The notes beneath the pieces were generated by a model. The model ran no database searches. It was not told the origin of the DNA and saw only the letters and a list, made by a program, of their open reading frames with translations. From Sternotherus odoratus (taxonomy: Eukaryota; Chordata; Testudines; Kinosternidae): 64,000 nucleotides of DNA. Made by a program: the position numbers and the translations under genes. This document shows, one piece after another, positions 3,196 through 64,000 of the stretch (position 1 is its first letter; every line of letters starts with the position of its first letter). Where the stretch lies: NCBI GenBank assembly GCA_032164245.1, contig JAVMKO010000005.1, positions 41,382,133 through 41,446,132 of the forward strand, read 5' to 3'.

Positions 3196-3663
3196 AGACG
3201 TATCTAAGTTAGCTTTGAAGCTGTGGGTAGTATAGGCAGCCCCTGCGTGAGTAGGAACCTGCAGTCTGAGGCAGGTGGGGCTAGCTTGGAACAGCTGTCT
3301 GAGACCATGGTTACACTTACAGGATTATAGCGCTTTTGGTTATAGCGCATCCCATATACAGCAATAGGTATTGTACTAGAGCTTGTCCACACTTTGACCC
3401 GCCAGCGCTAGAGCATGGCCACATTTGCGGCGCTTCAGGCGGCATTAGGAGCAGCGCTATAGGGCAGGAGCAACTCTTCCCAGTTTGGCGCAATGCCTTG
3501 TGGGAAGGGGGGCGTCACTTGCGGCCATTCTGCATCCTGTTCCAACTCCCCGTGATGCTTTGTGTCATATCCCAGCAATCCCTGTGTTTCCGTCCAACTT
3601 GGGCGCCATCTTTCAACGGTTTCAGCAAGGCGCGCTCTGTCGTCTGTTTTTTCGTGTGCCGTA

Positions 3664-4884
3664 ATGGATCGCGAACTGCTGAGGAGCATGCTGGCGACTG
3701 CGCAGCGGAGTTCATTCTTGACATGGAAGGTGACAGTAGTGATGGGTCTGAAGAAGACGAGCTCAAGCCGAGGAACGCATTGGACACTAAACTGATCGTC
3801 GCTTTAACGGACATGTTCATGACAGTGGAACACCGCTTCTGGGCATGGGAAACAAGCACTGACTGGTGGGATCGCATCGTCATGCAAGTGTGGGATGATG
3901 AGCAGTGGCTGCAAAACTTTCGCATGAGAAAAGCCACTTTCATGGGACTGTGTGCTGAACTCGCCCTTGCCCTGCAGCGCAAGGACACCAGATTGAGAGG
4001 TGCCATCCCGGTGGAGAAGCGGGTGGCTATAGCACTCTGGAAGCTGACCACCCCAGACAACTACCGATCGGTGGCCAACCACTTTGGGGTGGGAAAGTTG
4101 ACCGTTGGAGTCGTGTTGATGCAAGTGTGCAGGGCTATTAATAGCCTCCTGCTACGAAACATCGTGACTCTTGGTGACGTGTGTGAAATCGTGGCTGGCT
4201 TTGAGCAGATGGGGTTCCCTAACTGTGAAGGGGCGATCGATGGGACACATATACCTATTCTAGTGCCCGACCACCTAGCAGACGAGTACATTAACTGAAA
4301 GGGGTACTTCTCCATGGTTCTTCAGGCACTTGTGGATCACCATGGGCGTCTTACTGACAGGCTGGTCGGGAAAGGTGCATGACGCACGCATCTTCTGCCA
4401 CACTGGCCTGTTCAGGAAGCTGCAAGAAGGCATTTTTTTTCCAGACCAGAGGATCCCCCTGGGGGAAGTTGAAATGCCCATTGTGATTCTTGGCGACCCC
4501 GCTTACCCTCTAATGCCCTGGCTCATGAAACCCTACATAGGGAGCCTGGACAGCAGCCAGGAAAGGTTCAACTACAGGCTGAGCCACTGTCAAATAACTA
4601 TGGAGTGTGCTTTTGTGCGTCTCAAGGCGCGCTGGCGCTGTCTTTATGGGAAACTAGACTTGGCAGAGGGAAGTATTCCCGTAGTTATTTCCGTGTGCTG
4701 TGCCCTACATAATCTTTGTGAGCAGAAGGGCGAAGGCTTCACTGTGGCATGGTCCTCGGAGGTTCAACAGCTGGAGGCCACGTATGCACAGCCAGAGAGC
4801 AGGGCTCTTAGAGGGGCCCAGCGCGAGGCTACAAGGATCAGGGATGCCTTGAGCGAGCATTTTGATGCTGAAAGCGAGTTCTAA
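3664..4884 (+). pseudogene. Harbinger transposase (DDE_Tnp_4 type), broken
   Basis: This is the nuclease that would excise and insert the element, homologous throughout to the intact transposase at 59625. Visible landmarks are the ETSTDWWDRI block, the GVGK HTH-like stretch, GAIDGTHIP with the first catalytic Asp, HDAR, GDPAYPL with the second Asp, and MECAFVRLK with the catalytic Glu. Breaks are an in-frame TGA at 4296-4298 just after the DEYIN block, a small deletion and frameshift near 4360 just before GKVHDAR, and probably another frameshift near 3700-3720 between the start at 3664 and the MEGDSSDG segment. A polyadenylation signal AATAAA lies at 4980-4985. The copy cannot encode a full enzyme. 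Confidence 0.88.
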
Positions 4885-5108: not shown

Positions 5109-6935
5109 TCAGAGATTGACGTACATCCTCGCCTCATACCCTCCAATGCCCTTCGAGTTGCTGTGTTCCCCCAACCCCATTTGCGGAGGGCGACAATGCT
5201 TGTTATTGGGGGTTAAGTGCAATGGATAAAGGTCCTGTGTCTTTGGGTTGGTCGGTGAAGACAGGGGACTTGGAGGCAGCCGTGGGTGGTAATAACCAGG
5301 GAACTGTTGATAGTGGCCCGAAGGGGACAGAGGGCCAGAAGGGGAAGGATTAGGGGGCAACTGAGAATGGGAGCGGTGAGCACAGTGCTTCTTCTCCTCC
5401 TCAACGGCGGCGATCCGCTGCAGAGTCTCTACTTGCAGCTGTAATAATGTAAACAGCTTGTCAGCATGCTTTTCAGCACGCTGCTCGCGAGCCATCTCCC
5501 TCAACTGGATCTGTTCATCCCTCCGCTTGCTCTCATTCTCCCGCCACTGCTGTGCAACGTGATTCTCCATTACAGCCTGTTGCATAACTTGTTGTAAAAG
5601 ATCTTCCTTGCTCTTTTGCGGTCTCTTTCTAATCCTCCTCAGCTTCTCAGCTTCAGATAAGACAGACGGTGATGGGGTGTTCAAGGTCGAAACTAGGGAA
5701 AGTCAATGCAAAATTAAAACAGAGGATTCCCTTGTTCACAACAGACAGTGCTATGATTCCCCCGCACTCCAACTTTCTCTGTCCCGTTTGCCTGTCCCAC
5801 ACACAGCTAGAGCAACGGAGCCCCTGCCATGGTGAGTTGTCTCAGGATGCAGGGGGAATGATTGTTTCCCTGCCTTGCTGTCCTATGGCTTGGGGGGAGC
5901 AGAGGGCATTTGTGGGAACTGTACTCTGAGCACTGTCCCAACATTCTCTGTGTAGATGTTCGTGTTGGAAGATATCTCGCTGTTGTGGGTGATGGAGCAA
6001 GAAAGGGAGGGCATTCTAATGAGATGTGGCTTTCGGCCAGGGCCATATGCAGCTTTCCTCTGTGCAGCAATGCTCTCCCCACCCCTTGTAGAACAGTGGC
6101 GGAGACTAGTGACCGTGGACGGGACAGGGACCATGCTGGCTGTCCCGAGAAACCTGCGCAGGCACATTGCAAGAGCTCTTATTGAGACCTTTGAAGAAAC
6201 CATGGATGACGATTACTGTGATGTGATAGAGTACATCAATGCACTGTTCCACATGTAGGCAAGCATGCAGCAAGCATCCCTTTCCACCCTCGCCCAAGTT
6301 GCCTGCCTTCCCTATAGAAAAGTAGCTGTACCTGTGCAATCCGCTGCTGCTGCCCTTCCCCCCGCAACCGCTGGACGCTGTGGCTGGCTCTGGCTGCCCT
6401 CCGGGCTTGAGAAGAGTTCCTGGCTGCATGTGTCCTGTGACTCCTCCGTGTCCTGGGTCGCTGCTGCGGCCGCTGCCTCTTCTCCTCCTCCTCTGCCTCT
6501 CTGTCCTGCTCCTCTCCGTCCTCCTCTTCTTCGCCTCCTCTCCTCCCCCCCACCCCTTCACTAGTGGGCTGGGAAGAAGTGTCCTGGGTGCTCGATGGTG
6601 TGCACGTTGGATCACCACCAAGTATCGCGTGCAGCTCATTGTAGAATTTGCAAGTCACGGGCTGCCCCAGAGTGGCTGTTTGCGTCGCGGGCTTTGCGAT
6701 AGGCACTCATAAGATCCTTTACTTTTGCCCGGCACTACAGAGTGTCCCGGTCATGGGCTCTTTCCACCATGGCCTGTGATATCAGGACATATGTATCGTA
6801 ATTCCTGTGGCTAGACAGCAGCTGAGACTGGGCAGCCTCTTCCCCCCAACAACTGATGAGGTCCATCACCTCGCCATTGTTCCACGGTGAAGCTTGCTTA
6901 TTGCGAGGAGGCATAGCACGTGGAGTCATGGGCAA
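5109..6935 (-). pseudogene. Harbinger Myb/SANT-like DNA-binding protein, two exons, broken
   Basis: This is the accessory Harbinger protein that binds DNA and the transposase. Exon 1 begins near 6935 (MTPRAMPPRNK, then a Trp/Leu-rich trihelix-like domain) and ends at 6333 before donor GTACAG. Exon 2 runs from 5692, after a CCCTAG acceptor, to the stop at 5109-5111. The splice joins in phase 1, as in copy B. Exon 2 encodes a long, highly charged coiled-coil-like helix (EKLRRIRKR through LQVETLQRIAAVEE) and a Pro-rich tail. Exon 1 is broken by a TAG in RDTL*CRAKV near 6733 and by a frameshift near 6660; exon 2 is open. The acidic Glu-rich part followed by QELFSSPE matches copy B. Confidence 0.82.
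5956..6258 (+). CDS. Harbinger third ORF (ORF3), copy A, intact, 100 codons
   Basis: An uninterrupted reading frame on the transposase strand lies wholly inside the intron of the antisense Myb-like gene (6332-5693). It aligns along its length with the ORFs at 39833 and 63615. Shared features are an N-terminal D-I-(S/T)-L-L block, the motif PGPxAA at about residues 27-33, LPxNLxRxIxRxL (here VPRNLRRHIARAL) in the C-terminal half, and a terminal EYIxxLF. TGTGTAG lies directly before the ATG and could be a splice acceptor, implying a non-coding leader exon. The function is unknown: I recognise no domain. It looks mostly helical with no signal peptide or membrane segment. It remains open although both other genes of this copy are broken. 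Confidence 0.75.
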   Translation: MFVLEDISLLWVMEQEREGILMRCGFRPGPYAAFLCAAMLSPPLVEQWRRLVTVDGTGTMLAVPRNLRRHIARALIETFEETMDDDYCDVIEYINALFHM

Positions 6936-37269: not shown

Positions 37270-38052
37270 GGCTGACCATATGTCCCGTTTTGAACGGGAC
37301 AGTCCCGTTTTTTACATATTTTCGGACTGTCCCATCTTTTTAACACAAATATCAAATTTGTCCCGTTTTTGCTTTTTGCAGGGACCCACGGCCGGGTCCC
37401 GCCTCCTCCCCCCCCCCCCCCGCAGTCCTTCAGTCCCTTCCCCTCACGGCCTCGGGCCCCCCTCCCTGGCCTGCTTCCCCCTCCCCTCCGCCGCCGCAGA
37501 GCCCGCGCGGTGCGATTGGCTGGGCCGCCCCCACGTGCGGCGGAGTGGAGCTGCTGGCCGGGCAGGGGCTGCCTGGCGCCTCGCTCCCCCCGCCCCCTCC
37601 ATGTGGAGGAAACGCCACGTGCGGCCCAATAAGGGGGCGGCGTGGAAGGCGGGAGCGCGGGGATTGCGAGCTCAGGGAGCAAGGCCGGCAGCTGGGGCGG
37701 GTGCCGAGCGGAGCCGGAGGCAGCGCGAGCCCGGGCGGGGAGGAGGCGGCGCCGCCCCGGGCCCCATGGATCTGGAGAACATCGTCCCCAACAACACTGT
37801 GCTGCTCAAGGCGCGCGAAGGTGGGGGGGGGGAATGGGGGGGAGGGGGGAGGGAGTATGGGGGGGCATGGCTGCGTGTGAGGGGGGCAGGGGGAAAGAGG
37901 GGTGCATTGGGGCCATGTGTGAAAGTGGGTGGAAGTGGGGGACACAGGGTTGTGTGTGAAGGGAGGTACTGGCTGGAGCTGCATGTGAAGAGGGGCACAG
38001 GGGAAGTGGGGGGGGGGGGCATGGCTTCTTGTGAAGGGGGTGGTAGGTGGTG
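37270..38052 (+). mobile_element. GGCTGACC-ended element carrying a GRK-like promoter and exon 1, copy 1 (truncated)
   Basis: The element begins GGCTGACCATATGTCCCG, with repeated GTCCCGTTTT / AACGGGAC motifs to about 37378. It then switches to a CpG-rich, promoter-like segment (37380-37765) with CCAAT-type boxes (GATTGGCTGGGCCGC near 37515, GCCCAATAAGGGGGCGG near 37625), a coding start at 37766 and a G-rich minisatellite. It ends abruptly at 38052, where Harbinger B begins, so its other terminus is missing. The same sequence, in inverse orientation and nearly identical, is at 57093-56280. Confidence 0.75.
37766..37820 (+). pseudogene. Captured first coding exon of a GRK4/5/6-type kinase, copy 1
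   Basis: ATG at 37766 opens 18 codons reading MDLENIVPNNTVLLKARE plus one base. It ends at a donor-like GAAG/GTGGGG (37821), exactly where GRK5/GRK6 exon 1 ends. The family N-terminus (MELENIVAN-TVLLKAREG) differs by one substitution near residue 8, one extra Asn and Asp for Glu at residue 2. The N-terminal helix of these kinases docks on active receptors, but only this helix is present; there is no RGS-like or kinase domain. A chimeric transcript could start here; there is no evidence that one does. Confidence 0.72.
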
Positions 38053-38331
38053 ACCCCGCAGCACTAAAGCATGGACACATTTGTGGCGCTTCTGGCGGCA
38101 CTGAGAGTAGTGCAATAGGGCAGGTATCCCACAGAGCACCTCTTCCCAATCTGTCACAGTGCCTTGTGGGAAGGGGGGAGTCACTTGTGGCCATTCTGCA
38201 TCCGGTTCCAACTCCCCGTGATGCTTTGTGTCGTATCCCAGCAATCCCTGTGTTTCCGGCCACCTCGGGCGCCATCTCTCAACGGTTTCAGCAAGGCACG
38301 CGTGCTCAGTCGTCCGTTTTCCTGTGCCGTA

Positions 38332-38657
38332 ATGGATCGCGAACTGCTGTGGAGCATGTTGGCGAGTGTTTCCAGCACAACTCTCTGTGCCGCTGTCGAA
38401 TGACTGTGGAGTGTACCTTTGGGCGTCTTAAAGCCCGCTGGAGATGCCTTTATGGCAAGCTAGACTTGGCAGAGGGAAGTATATCCGCGGTTATTTCCGC
38501 GTGTTGTGCCCTACATAATCTCTGTGAGTGGAAGGGCAAAGCCTTCACTATGGCATGGACCTCGGAGGTTCAACAACTGGAGGCCACGTATGCACAGCCA
38601 GAGAGCAGGGCTCTTAGAGGGGCCCAGCGCGAGGCTACAAGGATCAGGGAAGCCTAG
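38332..38657 (+). pseudogene. Harbinger transposase remnant, catalytic core deleted
   Basis: ATG at 38332 gives MDRELLWSMLA as in copy A. Around 38365-38395 the sequence jumps to the equivalent of about 4565 in copy A, removing roughly 0.9 kb including both catalytic Asp motifs. From there VECTFGRLKARW (catalytic Glu) and the C-terminal LHNLCE and LRGAQREAT segments follow, in a different frame from the start, ending at 38657. It is non-functional as a transposase. Confidence 0.85.
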
Positions 38658-38968
38658 AGGGAGCATTTTCTGGCTGAAAGCGAGTTCTAATGGGAATTGC
38701 AGAGGGAGGTTTGGAGGGAGCAGTCTGTTAATAGGATAAGGCGTTTGCTTTTCTATACCTATTACACACATTTCTGCACCGAAAACAGAAACCCATTTAT
38801 TAAAAAGAATTCATTTATTGAACAGCTTTCTCATAATCTGAAATAAAAGTTGAAAAACATTAAAGTATGTGAGGGAGGAAGAGGTGTGAAATTGGGTTGA
38901 GGGAGGAAGAGGTGTGAAATTGGGTTGAGGGAGGAAGGGGTGTGAAATTGGGGTTGGAAAGGGGTCAG

Positions 38969-40790
38969 TCAGATATTGGCGTATGTCCTGGACTCATAAC
39001 CTCCAATGCCCTCCGAATTGCTGTACTCTCCCAACCCACTTTGCGGAGGGCGATTATGCTTGTTAGTAGGGGTTGGGTGCAGTGGATAAGGGTGCTGGAT
39101 CTGTGGGTTGGTCGGTGAAGGGAGGGGGGTGGGAGGCAGCTGTGGCTGGTACTAACCAGGCAGCAGTTGATAGTGGCCTGATGGGGACAGAGGGCCAGAA
39201 GGGGAAGGGTTAAGGGGCAAGTGACAATGGGGGTGGCAAGCAGGGGGCTGCTGCTCCTGAACAGCAGCGATCCGCTGCAGAGTCTGTACTTGCAGCTCTA
39301 ATATTCTAAGCAGCTTGTCAGCGCGCTTATCAGCACGCTGTTCGCGAGCTATCTCCCTCTGCTTCATTTGTTCCTCCCTCCGCTGTTCCCGACGCCTCAT
39401 CTCCTCCTCCCTCCGTTCGCTATCAGCGCGGTTGTCCATTGATGCCTGTTCCAGAACTTGCTTCAGAAGCTCCTCTTTGCTCTTCCTCGGTCTGCTTCGA
39501 ATTTTACTTAGTTTTTGAGCCACAGATAAAGCTGGTGAGGATGTCAAGGACAAGGCTGGAGAAAGTTACAATTTCACAGTTAAAACATAAGATCCCATTG
39601 TTTGCAACAGACAGTATTGGGGAGTCCCATGCATTCCTTGAATCTCTGTGCAGTTTCCCTGTCCAAATAAGCCATATCACACTCAGAGGTACCCACGGAT
39701 CCCCGGGCATGGTGAGTCGCTGGGACAAACACTGTTTCCCTGCCTTTCTATACTATTGTTTTGGGAGAGCGGAGGGCATTAGTGGGAACTGCAGTCTGAT
39801 AAGCATTCTCCCAACATTCTATGTAGGTTTTCATGCTGGAAGATATCTCTCTGTTGCGGGTGACGGAGCAAGACAGGGCGGGGATTTTAAGGAGATGTGG
39901 CTTCCGCCCAGGGCCATACGCGGCTTGCATCTGTGCGGCGATGCTGCCCCCACCGCTCTTAGAAGAGTGGCGTGGACTGGTGACCGTGGCCGGGACAGCG
40001 AACACGCTGGGGCTACCACGAAACCTCCGCAGGCACATTGCAAGAGCTCTTATTGAGACCTTTGCAGAAATCACTGATGAGGATTACCGCGAGGTGATAG
40101 AGTACATCAATGCACTATTCCACATGTAGGCAAGCATGCACGCATTCCTTTCCACCCTCGCCAAAGCTGTCTGCCCTCCCAATAGAAAAGTTTCTGTACC
40201 TGCGCAAACCGGTGCTGCAGCCCCAGCACCTGCAGCCGCCAGACGCTGTGGCTCGCTCTGGCTGCACTCTGGGCTTGAGAAGAGTTCCTGGCTGCATGTC
40301 TCCAGTGACTCCTCCGTGCCCTGGCTCGCTGCCGCGGGCGTGGCCGCCTCCTCCTCCTCGTCTACGTCCTGCTGCGAATCGCCATCCTGCTCGTCTCCAG
40401 CCTCCTTCCCCCCCCTTCAGTGGTGGGCTGGGAAGAAGTGTCCTGGGTGGTCACTGGAGTGCACGTTGCATCACCACCCAGGATCGCATCCAGAGCCCTG
40501 TAGAACTTGCTAAACACAGGGGCTGCCCCAGAGCGGCTGTTTGTGTCGTGGGCTTTGCGATAGGCAATCCTAAGCTCCTTTACTTTTGCCCGGCACTGCA
40601 GAGTGTCTCGCTCATGCCCGCTGTCCCTCATGGCCCGTGATATCAGGGCATTGGTATCGTAATTCCTGCGGCTAGACCGCAGCTGAGACTGGACAGCCGC
40701 TTCCTCCCAACAACTGATGAGGTCCAGCAACTCATGATCGGACCATGCTGGAGATCGCTTATTGCGAGGAGGCATGGCACGTGGAGTCAT
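38969..40790 (-). pseudogene. Harbinger Myb/SANT-like protein, two exons, lightly broken
   Basis: Exon 1 (from about 40790, MTPRAMPPRNKR) contains the DLISCWEEAAVQSQL / NYDTNALISRAM trihelix-like domain and LDAILGGD. It then appears to shift frame in a run of eight G near 40405; one base less restores the acidic EAGDEQDGDSQQD tract and SQELFSSPE. It ends at 40200 before donor GTACAG. Exon 2 starts at 39555 after CTCCAG and encodes the charged helix REEQMKQREIAREQRADKR. A TAG at 39152-39154 (after SGHYQLLPG) cuts the last ~60 codons, which remain readable to 38969. The intron phase is identical to copy A, supporting the two-exon model. Confidence 0.82.
39833..40129 (+). CDS. Harbinger third ORF (ORF3), copy B, intact, 98 codons
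   Basis: Open from ATG 39833 to TAG, it lies entirely within the Myb-like intron (40199-39556) on the opposite strand. It matches copy A nearly collinearly, with many third-position differences, and matches the distant copy C in DISLLRVTEQ, RPGPYAA, LPRNLRRHIARALIETF and VIEYINALF. CTATGTAG lies just before GTTTTCATG, again a candidate acceptor. There is no recognised domain; 98 residues, helical character, basic patch around residues 63-71. Function unknown. It is the only gene of copy B that remains complete. Confidence 0.75.
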   Translation: MLEDISLLRVTEQDRAGILRRCGFRPGPYAACICAAMLPPPLLEEWRGLVTVAGTANTLGLPRNLRRHIARALIETFAEITDEDYREVIEYINALFHM

Positions 40791-41401
40791 GGATCAAGCA
40801 AAATGGTTACCTGAGGAGCACTCCACGCCTGGCTGTAGCAAACAGGAAGGGGATTTTCAAATTTCCCTGGGAATATAAAGGGCGGGTCTGACGTGTGGTC
40901 ACCTGAGGACGCGACAGAAGAGTTTGAAATGATGGCCAGAGTGGCTCGAATGGGAATTATGGGCCAGGCTGGAGGAGGCTGGAGGCTCATTAACGCGCAA
41001 TGGGTGTTCACATTCGCACCGTTGCGCTATAGCGCTAGCGCAAAAGCCCTTATTACCCTCGGAAGGGTGGTTTACCAGTAGCGCTTTAAACTGAGACTTA
41101 TTGCGCAAAATGTGCCTGCAAGTGTGTACGGTTAGAGAGTTATAGTGCTTCTGGAGGCTTTTTAGCACTGTAAAGCGCCAGTGTAACCAAGCCCTTAGAG
41201 TGGTGCCTTTATAGCGCAGTATATATGACCCTGCTGACCCGCCCCTCGCTCAGTTCCTTCTTACCGCCCTGAGGGTCACTGGAACAGCTAGAGTCGTTAG
41301 CACTCACTTAGTGGTATTTGACTTGTCTTGTGTATTTAGTTAATGTTTGTTGTAGTTAAATACCTGTAAATAGTGTAAATAGTTTGATAGAACTTAGATA
41401 G

Positions 41402-43380
41402 ATGACCTCCGGCCAGCCGCTGCGGAGGTTCCTTCGCCACGGCACCGGGCCCGGCATGCCTCTTCTGTCGGGGTTTAAGTCCTGTGAGTCTTGCGGTAAG
41501 CCTATGCCAGCCAGTGACCCGCACTCAGTGTCTGAAGTGCTTGGGGGAGAGCCACCAGACGGACAGGTGCTCTCTTTGCAGAAGCTTCAAGCCCCGCACC
41601 AAAAAAGAATGCGACTCCCATTTAAAACTTATCCTCATGGAGTCCACGCTGCAGCCGCAATCAGAACAGGCCCCTTCGGTGCATAGCTCACCGGCCTCTG
41701 TGCGAAGCACACAGGCCTCGAAGAGGGACTCCTCCCGGACCCGCTGGCACAAATCCCCGGCATGCAGGTCCAGCACCTCTAGACGGCACCGCTCCCAATC
41801 TCTGGTGCCCTTAAAGAAGAAGAGACCAGAAAAGGGTCAATCCCCAACTTCCTGCCCTCACGGTGTCCGCGATGCAGAGCGGCCCGTGACGGAGCTGGCC
41901 CCTCGGGGCCGACAGGAACTGACAGCCACGGTACCAAGTGCTGCGGTTCCGCCTTCGGTACCGGTGCAGCCAGAGTCACCCCCGCGTGACCTGCAGGACG
42001 ACTTAGATCTTCCATCCACACCGGACACCTATGAGGCTGCCCGAGACCTCATTAGCATGGTGCAGGTTGTACGGCCACCGGCACCGCCATCAGTACCAAA
42101 TGCCTGCCCGGGTACCGTTGCACCGGTACTGGACTATACCTTTATGGTACCGTCATGTGTGCCCTCCACGTCGTCCGCACCGCCTCCGGTACCGGCCGTG
42201 TCGGACCCTGGCCCGCTCCCATCAGTGATACAGCACCGAGGTAAACCGACGATGATGTGGCACCGCTCCCTGCACCGAGCCGCGGTACCAACGGGCTCCG
42301 CGCCCCCATGGTCGGCATCGGACTATTCGTCGGAGTCGGATGTGGGGTCGTCCCGGTCACGACACAGTCACCGGCACCGCTCGCGCTCCCAGCATGGCTC
42401 TCAGCACCGCACTCGGGGGGAGCAGCCTCACTCGGCAGCAGATTGGCCCCCTCAGTGGCAGGGGCCAGGCCAGTGGCCCTTTTGGACCCTGTGGGCGTAC
42501 CACCAAGCCCAGGGGTGAGATTCCAGGACCACTTTGGTGATCTCTGGTACCAGGGCTCCTCCAACAGCCACTTCTACATCCTGCACATCGCCTAGGGCTA
42601 TTTGAACCCATGGGCCTCAATGGGTCAAGACCCTGCACTAGCCGCACCCCCAGTTCCCCCGGGAGCTTCGGCTATTCCTCCCCAGCCTCACCGCGGGGAA
42701 AAACTGGTGGACCATGTGGTACGCTGCTCCTCCTCCTCCTCTCCAGACGAGGTGGTGGCGGGCACGTCCTCCGGCCTTCCCCCAATGGACGTTAAGGGCC
42801 ATCAAGACCTCCTCCGCCGGGTGGCAAAAAGCCTAAAGCTCCAAGTGGAGGAGAGAATCAGAGAGGTAGCCGTGTTAGTCTGGAATAGCAGAGGTAACAA
42901 AGTCCTGTGGCACCTTAAAGACTAACTATAAAGTTTTGAAGCATAAGCTTTCGTGGGCTAATACCCACTTCGTGTGGAGGAGATCACTGAGGATCTGGAC
43001 CTGACAGTCGACATCCTGGCACCCGACGGCCCATCCAGGGTAGCCCTCCCTTTCATCAGTTCCATCGAGACAAACGCCAATGTGCACTGGCAAACCCCGG
43101 CCTCGATCCCGCTAACCGCAAGGGGAGTCGAGAGGCGATAGTTTGTCCCCCAGCGCGGATATGAACATTTCTTTACACATCCTGCACCGGGCACGCTCGT
43201 GGCAGACGCAGTTAACAACAGGGAGCATCAAGGCCAACCGGGGTCAGCCCCCAAATCCAGAGAAGCCAAGAAACTGGATCTCTTCAGCCGTGAGGTCTAT
43301 TCCACGGGCGCCCTACAGCTCCGTATCTCTAACTAGCAAGCCGCCCTGGGCCACTACTCCTACAATGCCTGGTCGTCCTT
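41402..43380 (+). pseudogene. DIRS gag-like ORF, broken
   Basis: It begins at ATGACCTCC (41402). A cysteine-rich segment (CESCGKPMPASDPH, then CLKCLGESHQTDRC) resembles the zinc-knuckle-like N-terminus of DIRS gag, but the two halves are in different frames, so there is a frameshift near 41520. A Ser/Arg- and Pro-rich middle follows to 42518, with further frame changes. The C-terminal segment (RVAKSLKLQVEE at 42820-42854) is interrupted by a SINE. Beyond the SINE it continues with DILAPDGPSRVALPF and WQTPASIPLTARGVERR, then stops near 43140 and 43337. Confidence 0.8.
42855..42973 (+). repeat. Full turtle SINE inserted in DIRS gag
   Basis: AGGTAGCCGTGTTAGTCTGG, CCTGTGGCACCTTAAAGAC and AAGCATAAGCTTTCGTGGGC lie in normal order, ending ACCCACTTCGT. 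A perfect 10 bp duplication GTGGAGGAGA flanks it at 42845-42854 and 42974-42983. This is the reference copy used to judge the rearranged SINEs elsewhere in the window. Confidence 0.93.
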
Positions 43381-43423
43381 AGGAAAATTTCAGGCCGTCG
43401 TTCCGCCTGTAGTACAAAACACT

Positions 43424-45592
43424 TTGCAGGACCTTCCCTTCGACCGGGAAGGCCTCTTTGCTAAAGAAACGGACAAGCGTTTTCATGGCCTAAAGGACTC
43501 TAGGTCCACACTCAGATCCCTGGGCCTCCACACCCCAGCGCCTCAGAGTCCCCCTCTCGGTTTTACCAACCGCCACCTAGACGGGAACCCGCTAGGAGGA
43601 GGGGGAGGGGTAATAATCCCAATAACAGAAGGCGTTCCCGACCCCCCAGCGGGCAAGACCAAGGGGCGTCAAAACCTCCACCTGGCCCAAAACCAAATTT
43701 TTGAAGGTTGCCACGAGGACGGCATTCCAGACACCAGCACGGATCCTTCCCCTCCCTTTTGGAACAGTCTATCCCGTTTCTATGGGGCGTGCGCCCAGAT
43801 CACGTCCGATCGCTGGGTCCTCAGCACGATAGAAATGGGATACTCTATCCAATTTTCCTCCTTCCCGCCCTGCCACCCCTCTTCCCCGTCCCTCTTCAGG
43901 GACCCCTGTCACGAGCAAATCCTCATGCAGGAGGTTCAGTCCCTGCTCCTGTTAGGGGTTATAGAGCAGGTCCCCCCTCAATTCAGGGGGAAGGGGTTCT
44001 ACTCCCGATATTTCCTTATCCCCAAAACCAAGGGGGGCCTTCGGCCCATCCTAGATCTATGAAACCTGAACGCGTACATACGAAAGTTCCGATTCTGTAT
44101 GATCTCCTTGGCCAGTATTATCCCCTCCATGGATCTGGGGGACTTGTATGCCGCCCTCGATTAAAGGATGCCTACTTCCACATCTCCATACTTCCATCCC
44201 ACAGGAGGTTTCTGAGATTTGTAGTTGGGGAGGCGCACTACCAGTTCAGGGTGCTCCCCTTTGGCCTCTCCACTGCCCCGAGAGTCTTTACCAAGTGCAT
44301 GGCAGTGGTGGCGGCGTTCCTACGCAAACACCAAGTACAAGTGTACCCCTACCTGGACGATTGGCTTATAAAAGCAAAGTCACAATCCCTAGTGACCGAG
44401 CACGTAGCTCTCGTCAGGGAATCCTTCCTCAGACTCGGCATTCTGCTCAGCGAGCAAAAATCCACTCATTTCCACCCAAACCATAGAGTTCATCGGAGCG
44501 GCGCTCGATGCCACAGCCAGGCTAGCGTCCCTCCCACTGCCACGCTTCCAAACCCTGACGCGCATCATCATGTCACTATTGCAGTTCCCGACAACAACGT
44601 CCAGAAACTACATGGTGCTGCTAGGTCACATGGCAGCTTGTGTATACGTGGTACAGTTCGCCAGACTGCGCCTGCGTCCCCTTCAGTCGTGGCTCACTCG
44701 GACGCACACACCATGCAGGGACCCCCTGGACATGGTGGTTACTCTCCCCCAACAGATCCTGGACTCTCTTCGCTGGTGGCTCAACCCACAGAACGTGTGT
44801 GCAGGGGTGCCCTTCGTGAGGCCCAAGCCGACTCTGGTCCTTGTAATGGACGCATCAGCCATGGGCTGGGGCGCTCACCTCGGGGACCTCAGGACGCAGG
44901 GCCACTGGTCCCAATCAGAACTCGCCCTACATATCAATGTGAGAGAGCTCAAAGCAGTCCTCCTGGCGTGCCAGACATTTCTCACCAGTCTGCGGGGCAA
45001 ATACATATCAGTCTTAACAGACAATACTGTGACAATGTTTTATATCAACAAAGAGGGTGGAGATTGCTCCTCTCCCCTCTGCCGAGAAGCCCTAGAACTG
45101 TGGGAGCTGTGCATCGCGAACTCAATAGTCCTACAGGTCTCCTACCTCCCGGGGCCCCAGAACGGGTTAGCGGACAGACTCAGCCGCTCCTTCCTCTCCC
45201 ACGAGTGGTCCCTCAACTCACACATCACATACATGATTTTCCTTTACTGGGGTGCTCCCCTGATAGATCTGTTCGCCACGCGGGCCAACAGAAAATGCCA
45301 CCGATTCTGCTCCCTCCTCAGCCACTCTCCCGGGTCGATAGGGGATGCCTTTCACCTCCCGTGGACAGGGGGTCTGCTTTACGCGTTTCTGCCATTCCCC
45401 CTTCTCCACAGGGTCCTCCTGAAGGTCCGCAGGGACAAAGCCTCCCTGATTCTCATCGCCCCGTCCTGGCCCCGCCAGCACTGGTTCACGCTCTTCTTGC
45501 GGCCCCGCCCATCACATTGCCAATATTCCCAATGCTGCTATCCCAGGAGCACGGGTGCTTACAACACCCCAATCTCCGCTCCCTGCACCTGA
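43424..45592 (+). pseudogene. DIRS reverse transcriptase / RNase H, broken
   Basis: RT motifs are visible: SRYFLIPKTKGGLRPILDL (about 44006-44059), KDAYFHI (44166), FGLSTAPRVF (about 44270), and the catalytic YLDDWL (44349). RNase H shows LVMDASAMGWGAHL (first Asp), NVRELKAV (Glu), LTDNTVTMFYINK (Asp) and LPGPQNGLADRLSR (Asp). Breaks are a TGA at 44060-44062, a one-base loss near 44161 next to KDAYF, and another frame change near 44475. The RNase H part (44490-45592) is open. The polyprotein cannot be made from this copy. Confidence 0.87.
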
Positions 45593-46647
45593 CTGCATGG
45601 AAGCTCCATGGCTGAACCCCCTTGAACAGCAGTGCTCTTCCGCAGTAAGGGAGGTCCTGTTGGGCAGCAGAAAGCCTTCCATGCAGGCCACCTACACAGC
45701 CAAGTGGAAACGCTTCTCTATTTGGGCAACCCAGCAAGGCGCTGTGCCCCTATCGGCCCTGGTACCTCTGGTGCAGGACTACTTACTCTCCCTCAAAGAA
45801 CAAGGCCTGGCCGTGTCCTCCCTGAAGGTTCATCTAGCGGCCATTTCCGCCTTTCACCCAGGTGTACAAGGGAGATCTCTCTTTAGTGACCCTATAGTGG
45901 GTAGGTTCCTCAAAGGGATGGAGAGGCTGTACCCTCAGGTACGCCTGCCAGTGCCCCCATGGGACCTTAACCTAGTCCTATCATCCCTCATGAGACCCCC
46001 CCTTTGAACCCCTAGCAACCTGCCCCCTCACTTACCTGTCCTGGAAGGTGCTCTTCCTCGTAGCAATCACTTCAGCGAGGAGGGTGTCCGAGCTAAGGGC
46101 CCTTACATCTGAACCCCCCTACACAATTTTTTATAAGGACAAGGTGCACCTGCATCCCTACCCGTCCTTCTTATCCAAGGTGGTCTCCGCTTTCCACATC
46201 AACCAGAATATTTTCTTACCGGTTTTCTGTCCCAAGCCGCACGCCACAGACAGGGAACGTGCACTCCATACCCTGGACGTTAGAAGGGCATTAGCCTTCT
46301 ACATTGAAAGAACGAGACCGTTTCGTAAATCACTGCAATTGTTTATTTCAACAGCAGAAAGAATGAGGGGTATGCCAGTCTCTTCACAGCGATTGTCCTC
46401 CTGGCTCATCTCATGCATTAAGTTGTCTTATGAACTGGCAAATATTCCGGCACCACCCTTGTCTGCACATTCCACCAGAGCACAGGCAACGTCCACCACC
46501 TTCCTGGCTCGGGTCCCGCTTCTTGAGATCTGCAGAGCAGTGACGTGGTCTTCCGTCCACACGTTTACCGCGCACTACGCCATCACCCAGCAGGCGAGAG
46601 AGGACGCCGGTTTCGGGGTGGCAGTACTGCAGTCCGTGACCAGATGA
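45555..46647 (+). pseudogene. DIRS tyrosine recombinase, one frameshift
   Basis: The integrase of DIRS elements, overlapping the RNase H end in another frame as usual for the group. The N-terminal SAM-like core-binding part includes ATYTAKWKRFSIWATQQGA and VHLAAISAFHPGVQG. The catalytic domain shows TSARRVSELRAL (first Arg), AHSTRAQATS (His-x-x-Arg) and TWSSVHTFTAHYA (Tyr). The two halves (45555-46007 and from 46011) are in different frames because of a C-run length change near 45995. Otherwise all four catalytic residues are present. Confidence 0.87.
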
Positions 46648-46721
46648 ACTCTGGACCCTCCGCCAAGGTAACTGCTCGCAAGTCACATCTTGGAATGCAC
46701 GTGAGCAATCACTTGAAGAAG

Positions 46722-55562: not shown

Positions 55563-56544
55563 TGACCCCCTATTTGCCTCCCCCAACCACATCAGCTTGT
55601 GGCTATGGCTCAGTTTCCTGCATAGCATCTCACAGGCAGAAGCTTGTGCAACAAGAGCTTCCCTCAGGCCAGCCACTCTGCCTTCCTCCTCCAGGCAGGC
55701 CCCCAACCGCCTCCACTATCAGTAACCCTTCTGACTGACCAAGTCCTCTCCCTACATCTGCAGCAGAAACACGGCTTCTCACCAACCCCACCGCATCGCC
55801 CACGCATGCCACAGCCACCTGCCCAGGCCTTAGCTGTGCCTTGAAGACTGACGCCCCGAATGGGCTCTGAGGCTTGGCCCAACTCCCGCATCCATGTGTT
55901 CAGGGAGGGCGTTAACCATGGTACCCCTACCCACCTGCCATCTCCCCTACCCACCCCCTGCCCCTCTTCACATCCAGCCATGGACTCCCCAGTACCTCCC
56001 TTCACAGACAACCCTGTGCCCCCCACATCCCCCCCACACCTTCACACATGGCCCCATACCTCCCACCCCCTTCACTCACAGCCCTGGACCCCCCAGTACC
56101 CTCCTTCACATACAACCCTATTCCCCTCATTCCATGCCCCCCACTTCCCCAGTACCCTCCTTCACACACAACCCTATTCCCCTCATTCCATGCCCCCCAC
56201 TTCCCCAGTACCCTCCTTCACACACAACCCTGTGCCCCCCATTCCATGCCCCCCACTTCCCCAGTACCCCCTTCACACACAGCCTTGTGCCCACCACCTA
56301 CCACCCCCTTCACAAGCAGCCATGCCCCCCCACTTCCCCTGTGCCCCTCTTCACATGCAGCCCCAGCCAGTACCTCCCTTCACACACAACCCTGTGTCCC
56401 CCACTTCCACCCACTTCCACACATGGCCCCTACGCACCCCTCTTTCCCCCTGCCCCCCCTCACACGCAGCCATGGCCCCCCACCCCATACTCCCTCCCCC
56501 CTTCACCCCATGCCCCCCCCCCGCCCGGTCCCCCCCCCCCCCCC

Positions 56545-56598
56545 CCCGCGCGCCTTGAGCAGCACAGTGTTGTTGGGGACGATGTTCTCCAGCTCCAT
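56545..56598 (-). pseudogene. Captured first coding exon of a GRK4/5/6-type kinase, copy 2
   Basis: ATG at 56598-56596 opens MELENIVPNNTVLLKAR. The Glu codon and the GT donor seen in copy 1 are replaced by a long G run, so this copy has probably lost its splice site. Residue 2 is Glu as in the kinase family, so copy 2 is closer to the ancestral peptide there than copy 1. Upstream sequence (56600-56990) is CpG-rich with the same CCAAT-type boxes. Confidence 0.7.
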
Positions 56599-57198
56599 GG
56601 GGCCCGGGGCGGCGCCGCCTCCTCCCTGCCCGGGCTCGCGCTGCCTCCGGCTCCGCTCGGCACCCGCCCCAGCTGCCGGCCTTGCTCCCTGAGCTCGCAA
56701 TCCCCGCGCTCGCGCCTTCCGCGCCGCCCCCTTATTGGGCCGCACGTGGCGTTTCCTCCACATGGAGGGGGCGGGGGGAGCGAGGCGCCAGGCAGCCCCT
56801 GCCCGGCCAGCAGCTCCACTCCGCCCCACGTGGGGGCGGCCCAGCCAATTGCACCGCGCGGGCTCTGCGGCGGCGGAGGGGAAGGGGAAGCAGGCCGGGG
56901 AGGGAGGCCCGAGGCCGTGAGGGGAAGGGACTGAAGGGCTGCGGGAGAGGGTGGGAGGAGGCGGGACCCGGCCGTGGGTCCCTGCAAAAAGCAAAAACGG
57001 GACAAATTTGATATTTGTGTTAAAAAGACGGGACAGTCCGAAAATATGTAAAAAACGGGACTGTCCTGTTCAAAACGGGACGTATGGTCAGCCTATGATT
57101 GGGTGACCCCTGAATTGGCATAGCAGAGGCTGGTATAGGTCAGGAATGAGACACAGCCTCAAACCTGCATTAAGGCAGCTTGCACTATCCCTATTATC

Positions 57199-59271: not shown

Positions 59272-59624
59272 TTAGGGTATGTCTTCACTACAGCAGTAGA
59301 TCGATTTCCTTTAAGTCGATTTTTTAAAGCAGACTGTATAGAGTCGATTTTGTGTGTCCCCACAAAGCACAACAAGTCGACAGTGTCTGTCCGCACAACT
59401 GTTGCAAGCGTCGACATAGCGAGCGTTGCACTGTGGGTACCTATCCCACAGTTCCCGGAGTCCCCAGCAGGCACCATTTCGAGTGCTGCACTATGGGTAG
59501 GCATTTCATAATTTCGCGCCCTTTTTTTGCTCCGCCGACCCCATTTCGAGCGGTGCACTGTGGGTAGGCATCCCATTATTCGCGCTCTTTCTCCGCGCCT
59601 CGCTAACGCCGTAGCGCGGCAAGC

Positions 59625-60944
59625 ATGGAGCCTGCTGATGCCACCGCTGCAGTACTGGCCGTTGTGAGGACCTCGCGCACTGTTGTGGATTTTATGCTGT
59701 ACCGTCTGCAGAGGAATGCGATCCGGAGACAACTGCGCTTTCCAGAAGCTGACGACAGTGATGAGGAGATGGACCTGGACGTGCACAGCAGGGACAGGGA
59801 CACTGCGGTTTTTGGAAGTAGGGCGACCGACAATCTGGCAAATTTGGTGGCAATGGGGCAGGCTCATGCCATGGAACGCCGATTGTGGGCCAGGGAAACA
59901 AGCACTGACTGGTGGGATCGCATAGTGCTGTGGGTTTGGGATGACTCCCAGTGGCTCAGAAACTTTTGCATGCGTAAGGGCACGTTCATGGAACTTTGTG
60001 ACTTGCTTTCCCCGGCCCTCCGGCGCAAGAATACCAGAATGAGAGCGGCCCTCACAGTGGAGAAGCGAGTGGCGATAGCCCTCTGGAAGCTTGCAACACC
60101 AGACAGCTACCGGTCAGTTGAGAATCAGTTTGGGGTGGGTAAATCTACAGTGGGGTCTGCTGTGATGCAAGTAAGCAGAGCAATCGTCGAGCTGCTGCTA
60201 CCCAGGGTTATAAACCTTGGAAACCTGCAATCAACAATAGATGGCTTTGCCGCCATGGGATTCCCTAACTGTGGTGGGGCTATAGATGGGACTCATATCC
60301 CTGTCCTGGCACCGGACAACGAGGCCGCAGAGTACAGACACCGGAAGGGATATTATTCTATGGTCATGCAAGCAGTGGTTGACCACAAGGGACGTTTCAC
60401 CAACCTGTACGTGGGGTGGCCGGGAAAGCTTCATGATGCTCGTGTTTTCAGGAACTCTAGGATTTTTAGACAGCTGCAGCAAGGGATTTTCTTCCCCGAC
60501 CAGAAAATTTCCGTGGGGGTGTGTGTGGAAATGCCGATTGTTATCATTGGGGATCCAGCCTACCCCCTAATGCCCTGGTTTATGAAGCCCTACACAGGAG
60601 CACTGGACAGGGGTCAGGAGCTGTTCAACTACAGGCTGAGCAAGTGCAGGATGGCAGTAGAGGGTGCATTTGGCCGTCTGAAGGGGCGATGGCGTTCATT
60701 ACTTATTCGCTCAGACATCAGCGAGAGAAATATCCCCATTGTTATTGCTGCTTGCTCAGTGCTCTACAATCTCTGTGAGAGCAGGGGGGAAACGTTTATG
60801 GCGGGCTGGGAGGCAGAGGCAAATTTCCTGTCCGCTGCTTACCAGCAGCCAAACAGCAGGGAAAGTAGAAGAGCGCACCATCACGTGCTGCGCCTCAGGG
60901 ATGCCTTGAAAACCAGTTTTATGAGTGCCCAAGATGGCGTTTGA
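59625..60944 (+). CDS. Harbinger transposase, intact, 439 residues
   Basis: This is a DDE nuclease of the PIF/Harbinger (DDE_Tnp_4) group that would cut the element ends and target TTA. The frame is uninterrupted from ATG 59625, with an acidic N-terminal segment (residues 41-52). Landmarks are ETSTDWWDRI (91-100), the HTH-like VENQFGVGKSTVG (165-177), GAIDGTHIP with catalytic Asp221, HDAR with Asp271, GDPAYPL with Asp310, and VEGAFGRLK with catalytic Glu346. Length and motif spacing are normal for the family. AATAAA lies at 61029-61034, some 85 bp after the stop. No premature stop or frameshift was found, so the protein may be functional, although the partner Myb gene in this copy has a stop. 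Confidence 0.93.
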   Translation: MEPADATAAVLAVVRTSRTVVDFMLYRLQRNAIRRQLRFPEADDSDEEMDLDVHSRDRDTAVFGSRATDNLANLVAMGQAHAMERRLWARETSTDWWDRIVLWVWDDSQWLRNFCMRKGTFMELCDLLSPALRRKNTRMRAALTVEKRVAIALWKLATPDSYRSVENQFGVGKSTVGSAVMQVSRAIVELLLPRVINLGNLQSTIDGFAAMGFPNCGGAIDGTHIPVLAPDNEAAEYRHRKGYYSMVMQAVVDHKGRFTNLYVGWPGKLHDARVFRNSRIFRQLQQGIFFPDQKISVGVCVEMPIVIIGDPAYPLMPWFMKPYTGALDRGQELFNYRLSKCRMAVEGAFGRLKGRWRSLLIRSDISERNIPIVIAACSVLYNLCESRGETFMAGWEAEANFLSAAYQQPNSRESRRAHHHVLRLRDALKTSFMSAQDGV

Positions 60945-62574: not shown

Positions 62575-63006
62575 CTACAGGGGGGGGAGGTGGTTACACA
62601 GAGGCTGCAGAGGCAATCTTTGGTCCTGCTTCAGCTCCACCAGACACCTCAGCTCCACCAGACACCTCAGCATGTCTCTTTGGTCCTCAATTATCCGGAG
62701 CAAAGCATCCATCCGCGTTTCTTCACGTTCCTGTCGTCTTTCTTCGCCCTCCAGTTGTCTTTGTTCGCGCTCCAGCCACATTTCTTCCCTCTTTTCTGCT
62801 GCGTCTCTTGATTCCTACCTTGACTGGAGCAATCTTTCCCTCCATTCCATCTGGCGGGTTGCCTCAGCGCGCGAGTTTTCCAGTAGTTCATTGAACATAT
62901 CATCGCGCGTTTTCTTTTTACACTTTCGTATCTGTGATGCACGGCGTGAGGAGCGGGACGGGGGATTTTGAGATAGTTGTGCAGTTGTGGGCAAAGAAAG
63001 GTTCAA
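62575..63006 (-). pseudogene. Harbinger C Myb-like protein, exon 2, one stop
   Basis: It reads TLNLSLPTTAQLSQNPPSRS, then KCKKKTRDDMFNELL and WRERLLQSR, a TAG at 62815-62817, and continues in the same frame with ESRDAAEKREEMWLEREQ, MDALLRIIEDQRDML and a stop at 62575. The charged coiled-coil-like composition matches exon 2 of A and B. The expected AG acceptor before the first codons is not seen (AT instead), another possible lesion. Exon 1 is outside the window. Confidence 0.75.
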
Positions 63007-63614
63007 GGTTATGAGATAGATGCATTCTCGGACGGATCATAATGGGAGTACTATGCAACTGGCAACCTCAGTATTCAGAGGCCTGATATGATTTCTGTAC
63101 AAGGTCATATTCCACACCTAAAAGTGACTGAATGGCTCACAGAAAAGTCACAGCATCTCACACACATATGCGAGCCTCAGCCTCAACACGGCTTCTGAAA
63201 TCATCCATGCAGCCAGCCATGGTAAGCTGAAATCCATATTTAAAAGAAGCACTTGGATATTCTAGAGTAACCCCACCCCCTTCCCCCCACCACGTGGATT
63301 CCTCCTCCCCCCACTGCGTGGCTCCCAGTGAACCGCGAACTGCAAAACAAAAAAAAATCTCTCGCTAAGGGCTGGCTGGGTTGGGGGCCGAAGGGCGTTG
63401 GGAGCGTGTTCGGTCTTAAGCAGAAGCACCCGCTTGCAGACTCTTCAAAATCCCTGCTAGCTACCGCTACGGGCTGGCGGGGGGGCGGGTGCGCATTCGG
63501 GGGGTGGGGAGGGGGAGGACCCGCACGCGGTCGGTCTTCAGCGGAAAAGATTACTTTGCAGCTGGGAACCTTTATCTCCCTACTAATTGCAGTCCGTATT
63601 TCAAACAGGCAACC

Positions 63615-63905
63615 ATGAATGACATCACTTTGCTTAGAATTTCTCAGAGAGATAGAGAACGCGTGCTGCTTGAGTCACTGCAAAGTCCTGGTCCATTCGC
63701 CGCAATGCTAGCCTGCTCAATGATACCAGACTATTTACTACTTTCGTGGAGTGGGATGGTCTCCTATCACGGGGGGCCACATAAGGCGGCTCTCCCCAAA
63801 AATCTGGTGCGGAAGATTCATCGCTACCTCCTGGATAGCTTCATTGAGATGTCCGTAGAGAACTTCCGGTCAATACCGGAGTATATTGACAAACTCTTTG
63901 AGTAG
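63615..63905 (+). CDS. Harbinger third ORF (ORF3), copy C, intact, 96 codons
   Basis: Open from ATG 63615 (context AACCATGA) to TAG 63903-63905, with its own AATAAA at 63957-63962. TTTCAAACAG directly precedes GCAACCATG and is a good acceptor. Compared with B it keeps DI-LLR near the start, SPGPFAA (24-30), LPKNLVRKIHRYLLDSF (60-76) and IPEYIDKLF (87-95), with many other residues changed. Retention across families this different suggests selection on the protein. It lies on the transposase strand, upstream of Myb exon 2 in the antisense gene's terms, as in A and B. Function unknown. Confidence 0.78.
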   Translation: MNDITLLRISQRDRERVLLESLQSPGPFAAMLACSMIPDYLLLSWSGMVSYHGGPHKAALPKNLVRKIHRYLLDSFIEMSVENFRSIPEYIDKLFE

Positions 63906-64000
63906 AAACTGACCAGCAATGAAAGCACGCTAAGTCCTTAGGGCAAGTTAATCATTAATAAATGCTTCCTTTAAAAATCATGAGTCATGTAATCCCTTAA

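Follow-up and report, generated by a model that had tools for sequence, protein, structure and literature searches.

Known Harbinger elements

The closest described relatives of the elements analysed here are the vertebrate PIF/Harbinger transposons of the PHIS superfamily, which are two-gene elements with a DDE_Tnp_4 transposase, a Myb/SANT protein and 3-bp TWA target sites. Where the literature describes gene content, Harbinger elements are given one or two ORFs (PMC4482050, PMC9179366), the PHIS groups of an 836-genome survey have one or two ORFs each (PMC4482050), and both Harbinger genes are stated to be necessary (PMC9179366). According to PMC12730594, HarbingerS, with SET, and fungal PHISTA, with TET/JBP and one more protein, likewise carry an extra chromatin-type gene beside the transposase. 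However, these extra genes are enzymes, and their domain, host and layout are unlike those of the gene that we describe; moreover, the fungal PHISTA elements differ from ours in being without Myb/SANT (PMC12730594). In the open-licence literature, the BEN domain and Harbinger co-occur in one paper, and there in a reference title and a table. It may be that a third ORF is already present in Repbase, unremarked.

We analysed a stretch of 64,000 nucleotides from the turtle Sternotherus odoratus ("the window"), which holds three Harbinger elements, A, B and C. These share the transposase and the Myb/SANT protein of the vertebrate elements as described, and C has their TWA sites as well; they differ from the described elements by a third gene, ORF3, with a predicted BEN fold. 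Judged from sequence comparison and a structure model, ORF3 is a genuine third gene of Harbinger elements in turtles and is under constraint.

Elements in the window

The features other than ORF3 are as follows; a slash marks an exon boundary here and below.

3555 to 4884, plus strand: element A transposase, split into two frames (3555-4298 and 4342-4884)
6560 to 6926, minus strand: element A Myb exon 1 region, broken; two tblastn pieces
38346 to 38684, plus strand: element B transposase remnant
40362 to 40790, minus strand: element B Myb/SANT exon 1 (PF13837)
59272 to 59293, plus strand: element C left end, with a TTA target-site copy (59272-59274) and then the terminal inverted repeat start GGGTATGTCTTCACTACAG; read by eye
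59625 to 60944, plus strand: element C transposase, 439 aa, DDE_Tnp_4
62590 to 62991, minus strand: element C Myb, exon 2 region, with one stop
Locus L009, about 5377-4852, minus strand, outside the window: element C Myb exon 1, donor ...GGGG/GTAAGTG
Locus L009, 5784-5805 (window about 64951-64972, beyond its end): element C right end, ...CTGTAGTGGGGACTAGCCC followed by TTA; read by eye

Element C is ~5.7 kb long, and L009 is its flank. The DDE_Tnp_4 match has an E-value of 8.6e-33 for the C transposase and 3e-37 for that of a related family, D, and PF13837 (Myb/SANT) was found in Myb exon 1 of B, C and D. Target sites are 3-bp TWA (TTA on both sides of C, by eye; TTA in L013 and ATA in L016, both of family D), so that C and D show the TWA duplication and the inverted repeats starting GGG by which PIF/Harbinger is recognised. 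An end-finding script gave no paired ends for 7 of the 10 copies tried, B and C included.

Two further observations concern the window itself. Long retroelement-like frames, with a YLDDW-type reverse transcriptase seen by eye, occupy 41400-46650 on the plus strand. The segments 37280-38275 and 55860-56934 hold near-identical reading frames on opposite strands, an apparent inverted duplicate.

Homology and gene structure of ORF3

The initial annotation had proposed three open frames on the transposase strand, and all were found on the plus strand:

5956 to 6258, plus strand: ORF3 reading frame A, 100 codons
39833 to 40129, plus strand: ORF3 reading frame B, 98 codons
63615 to 63905, plus strand: ORF3 reading frame C, 96 codons

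It had also held that C shares only scattered residues and motifs with A and B. The likeness is in fact far wider, with 30 invariant columns among the three. The C protein aligns without gaps to B (40% identity over 95 columns, E 4e-28) and to A (35% over 95 residues, E 6e-21), each E-value being that of a single comparison, so the homology is not restricted to A and B. The majority ORF3 sequences of the two families, A/B and C, differ at 53% of nucleotides and are 43% identical in amino acids. In a neutral simulation at this nucleotide difference, a crude null with uniform substitution and no indels, the frame was still open in 2.3% of trials and the observed amino-acid identity was attained in 0 of 20,000.

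The opening ATGs of frames A and B are copy-specific, as an alignment has ATG at either place in 0 of the 8 other A/B-type copies. The shared ATG sits one small exon upstream, at 5829 in A, 39709 in B and 63219 or 63207 in C, which leads to the following gene models.

5829 to 6258, plus strand: ORF3 A, with ATG 5829-5831, intron 5832-5955 and exon 2 5956-6258
39709 to 40129, plus strand: ORF3 B, with ATG 39709-39711, intron 39712-39826 and exon 2 39827-40129; its protein was structure-modelled
63207 to 63221, plus strand: ORF3 C exon 1 coding end, ATGCAGCCAGCCATG, then donor GTAAGC
63222 to 63608, plus strand: ORF3 C predicted intron, 387 bp, GT...CAG
63609 to 63905, plus strand: ORF3 C exon 2, predicted BEN-fold protein (fold taken from the B homologue)
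63957 to 63962, plus strand: AATAAA 3' of ORF3 C

In both families the upstream exon ends in ATG with the donor directly after it (ATG/GTGAGT in A/B, ATG/GTAAGC in C), and the acceptor lies immediately 5' of the frame (TAG/G and AAACAG/GCAA, respectively). Of the 9 A/B-type copies, 8 keep the donor GT, L011 having lost it; among the 8 C-type copies it is mutated in L041 and was not found in L039, which leaves 6 with it. The acceptor AG is kept in all 9 and all 8. The predicted spliced products begin MMFVLED, MVFMLED and MQPAMATMNDI, all in frame. Turtle gene models splice unrelated upstream exons at or beside the acceptor position; because these models are annotation products, they are consistent with the acceptor and not proof of it.

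ORF3 had been placed between the transposase and Myb exon 1. Exon 1 of C was confirmed on the flank, and the placement can be sharpened: ORF3 lies wholly within the Myb intron, on the opposite strand. We rejected the idea that ORF3 is part of the Myb gene, given this orientation and the stops in the antisense frame of C.

Beyond the AATAAA of ORF3 C, and directly ahead of the donor of Myb exon 1, stands an A-rich run (L009 4797-4850, window 63964 to 64017), of which L027 has a shorter version. This run may derive from a processed transcript, or may have arisen by chance.

Selection on ORF3

For the C type, we estimated GY omega from 8 copies, with stop- or gap-containing codons masked. The values are 0.41 for ORF3 (96 codons), 0.47 for the transposase and 0.385 for Myb exon 1, all raised by post-insertion decay of the copies. 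Fixing omega at 1 costs 7.2, 20.8 and 15.7 units of lnL, respectively, in runs where kappa was fixed at 2.2, which is near the ORF3 estimate (2.22) and off that of Myb (1.63). When A is compared with the A/B majority, omega is 0.31-0.35 in frame and 0.43-1.56 in the other five frames. On these substitution estimates, ORF3 is under purifying selection. The proposed test of whether dN/dS is near 1 between families could be answered within families only, by the values just given: dS is saturated between C and A/B (NG86, YN00), so there is no usable ratio, and the maximum-likelihood value is untrusted.

Predicted fold

Structure prediction, which the initial annotation had suggested, was carried out on the B protein and gave a BEN fold: the model matches solved BEN domains. 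We therefore predict, with confidence for the B protein, that ORF3 encodes a single BEN-fold domain. The predicted likeness to the BEN domains of BEND3, BANP, NACC1, BEND6 and insensitive spans nearly the whole ORF3 protein; ORF3 differs from these proteins in being a lone domain encoded by a transposon. At the sequence level, the likeness to turtle BEND3 BEN4 is weak, and shuffle tests give modest support for similarity to BEN. The Pfam BEN model (PF10523) has no match in the ORF3 proteins, nor is ORF3 among that model's 8 matches in its own genome. We also rejected ORF3 as a family known to sequence libraries, as matches in the ORF3 part are at chance level. A Foldseek viral search with the model placed mostly viral BEN proteins at the top and is uninformative on origin.

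According to PMC11472053, solved BEN complexes have helix 5 inserted in the major groove, and the choice of base depends in part on BANP Arg316 or NACC1 Arg469. Unlike solved BEN domains, ORF3 has a helix 5 cut short at about BANP 317. At position 97, which takes the place of BANP Arg316 in an approximate map, 12 of 26 rows have Arg (11 Chelonia proteins and P0019), whereas A and B have His and C has Glu. The net charge of helix 5 is acidic in 19 of the 26 rows, and that of helix 4 is basic in 19. ORF3 may read DNA in an altered way or weakly, or may make protein contacts instead.

Homology, intron position, purifying selection and the predicted fold together support the conclusion that the third Harbinger gene predates the split of the two families, and they bear out the original proposal of a conserved third gene in two divergent families. 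The same lines of evidence make it very improbable that ORF3 is nonfunctional, whether because frames in a young repeat stayed open by chance or because the exon was captured by host genes only, even though it is small and broken in many copies.

Presence and loss in related elements

Among 8,702 candidates, at least 150 match DDE_Tnp_4, and our survey drew on 150 scored matches. The 27 elements counted are the first 20 whose open frame reaches 440 aa, 4 picked by hand, the C flank, A and B, a sample biased to intact, young copies. Loci L003-L008 are parts of counted loci. L001 and L002, which have pieces of an A/B-type ORF3 at their edge, were too short to be counted, at 3.5 kb apiece. C-type elements were defined by a transposase 85-100% identical to that of C; the A/B-type label was given by a recognisable ORF3.

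The expectation that ORF3 would recur in related elements held in part. It is present in some state in all 8 elements with a C-like transposase: uninterrupted to the usual stop in four (L009, L027, L041 and L039, the last with CTG for the internal ATG), ending two codons early in L038, and broken in L017, L019 and L040. Among the 19 others, ORF3 is present in some state in 9 (open in A and B, with one stop in L023, and shifted, deleted or interrupted in the rest), and in 10 it is absent or disabled, being missing or unrecognisable by tblastn. Seven of these 10 are D-type (L013-L016, L018, L021, L024), with no match to any of the three ORF3 queries; L020 is without the ORF3 exon, and in L010 and L028 neither ORF3 nor Myb exon 1 was found. 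Six of the seven D copies were aligned, and all six have ATGCC where ATGGT is expected, with the acceptor and exon start gone. A closed majority ORF3 in other families had been named as evidence against the gene; the frame is open in both families here and closed in family D, so this test is partly positive.

The other genes of D are well kept: the transposase is 414-416 aa in 6 of 6 copies inspected and Myb exon 1 is 215-217 aa in 5 of 6 (144 in L024). Over about 4.1 kb, identity among five D copies is 98.3-99.9%, compared with 88-95% between ORF3-bearing copies and their closest fetched relative (best single alignment). The loss of ORF3 is older than the L021 branch (about 95% identity), well before the latest D copies. 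ORF3 was therefore lost before the latest D burst and is not needed in cis; it is conserved yet dispensable, and family D rules out an essential subunit acting in cis. Retention of ORF3 with transposase and Myb, under similar constraint, would fit a structural subunit of the transposition complex if D copies were moved in trans with ORF3 from other families. We consider this quite unlikely, because the D lineage amplified after losing ORF3, as several copies that share the loss attest, and because two proteins suffice for zebrafish Harbinger.

GCGC motifs cluster within 200 bp of the element ends (4+6 in the D copies L013 and L016; 5+5 in L023, whose ends are uncertain), compared with 0.05 and 0.5 per 200 bp inside elements. 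The arrays are ruled out as ORF3 sites since they are kept in D; perhaps they are Myb or transposase sites.

ORF3 in predicted turtle proteins

The proposed search of crocodile, lizard, frog and fish was made on predicted proteins, where every named database protein with ORF3 comes from a turtle (Chelonia, Caretta, Lepidochelys, Malaclemys, Chrysemys, Emys, Pangshura); another three are nameless (P0019, P0024, P0027). Sixteen of the 37 rows are CENP-Q proteins without ORF3, pulled in by a fused isoform, P0016.

Predicted isoforms of turtle host genes that end in ORF3 include CENPQ X3, TEDC1 X5 and Hsc70-interacting protein X1 in Chrysemys, TMEM59 X3 in Emys, MDM2 X4 in Malaclemys and a KIRREL3-like protein in Chelonia (P0016, P0038, P0039, P0042, P0046, P0012). 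Four Chelonia mydas models (P0007, P0014, P0025, P0041) join an apparent N-terminal part of the transposase to ORF3, whole or partial, and, if real, are transposase-N-BEN fusions without the catalytic domain. A further Chelonia mydas model, P0009, has a complete ORF3 preceded by an extra stretch like the C-terminal half of ORF3 (LPSRNLHKRIAACLQGSF), which may stem from exon duplication.

Role of ORF3

Our best explanation, to which we give a probability of roughly 70%, is that ORF3 is a genuine third gene, with one intron and a BEN-fold product, that lies in the Myb/SANT intron and acts as a regulator of the element rather than as a catalytic subunit. ORF3 would be transcribed from the transposase strand, within the intron of the oppositely oriented Myb/SANT gene, and splicing would remove one short intron right after the start codon. 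The product of ~100 residues, a single predicted BEN-fold domain, would enter the nucleus and, either at the element or at sites of host BEN factors, bind to DNA or to a partner in chromatin, and so modulate expression, silencing or targeting of the element. A young lineage keeps transposase and Myb with ORF3 disabled, which argues against a catalytic subunit, and a lineage recently active without ORF3 makes it look like a helper or regulator outside the jumping machinery. We thus favour a nuclear regulator over a core subunit.

Such a regulator might repress, shield or target the element. A self-limiting repressor could bind the element or compete with Myb or transposase and so hold transposition at a low level, and its loss in D would have aided the burst. 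Host BEN proteins are often repressors, and the most recently amplified family sampled, D, is the one without ORF3; however, this is a single loss event in a biased sample, and it long predates the latest D copies, so we put this forward only tentatively. Equally tentative is the idea that ORF3 protects the element against silencing by the host or directs it into open chromatin, as accessory genes of other DNA transposons may do. Precedents are found in part of PMC12730594, where other DNA transposons carry epigenetic accessory genes; against this, A, B and C all lack the CpG-selecting arginine on the approximate map, and D spread without ORF3.

On a wider and rather unlikely reading, a transposon-borne regulator of the BEN family restrains or shields its element, its loss aided the amplification of a daughter lineage, and turtle host genes such as CENPQ, TMEM59, ST13, TEDC1 and MDM2 now have isoforms whose BEN-fold C-termini come from its exon, which brings a splice acceptor of its own. 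A word of caution applies to annotation, since several turtle gene models may include a transposon exon. A constrained third protein with a chromatin-factor fold alters the view of gene content and control in the Harbinger superfamily, and suggests that BEN-like domains can travel with transposons. Related families with and without ORF3 offer a natural comparison for the study of transposon self-regulation.
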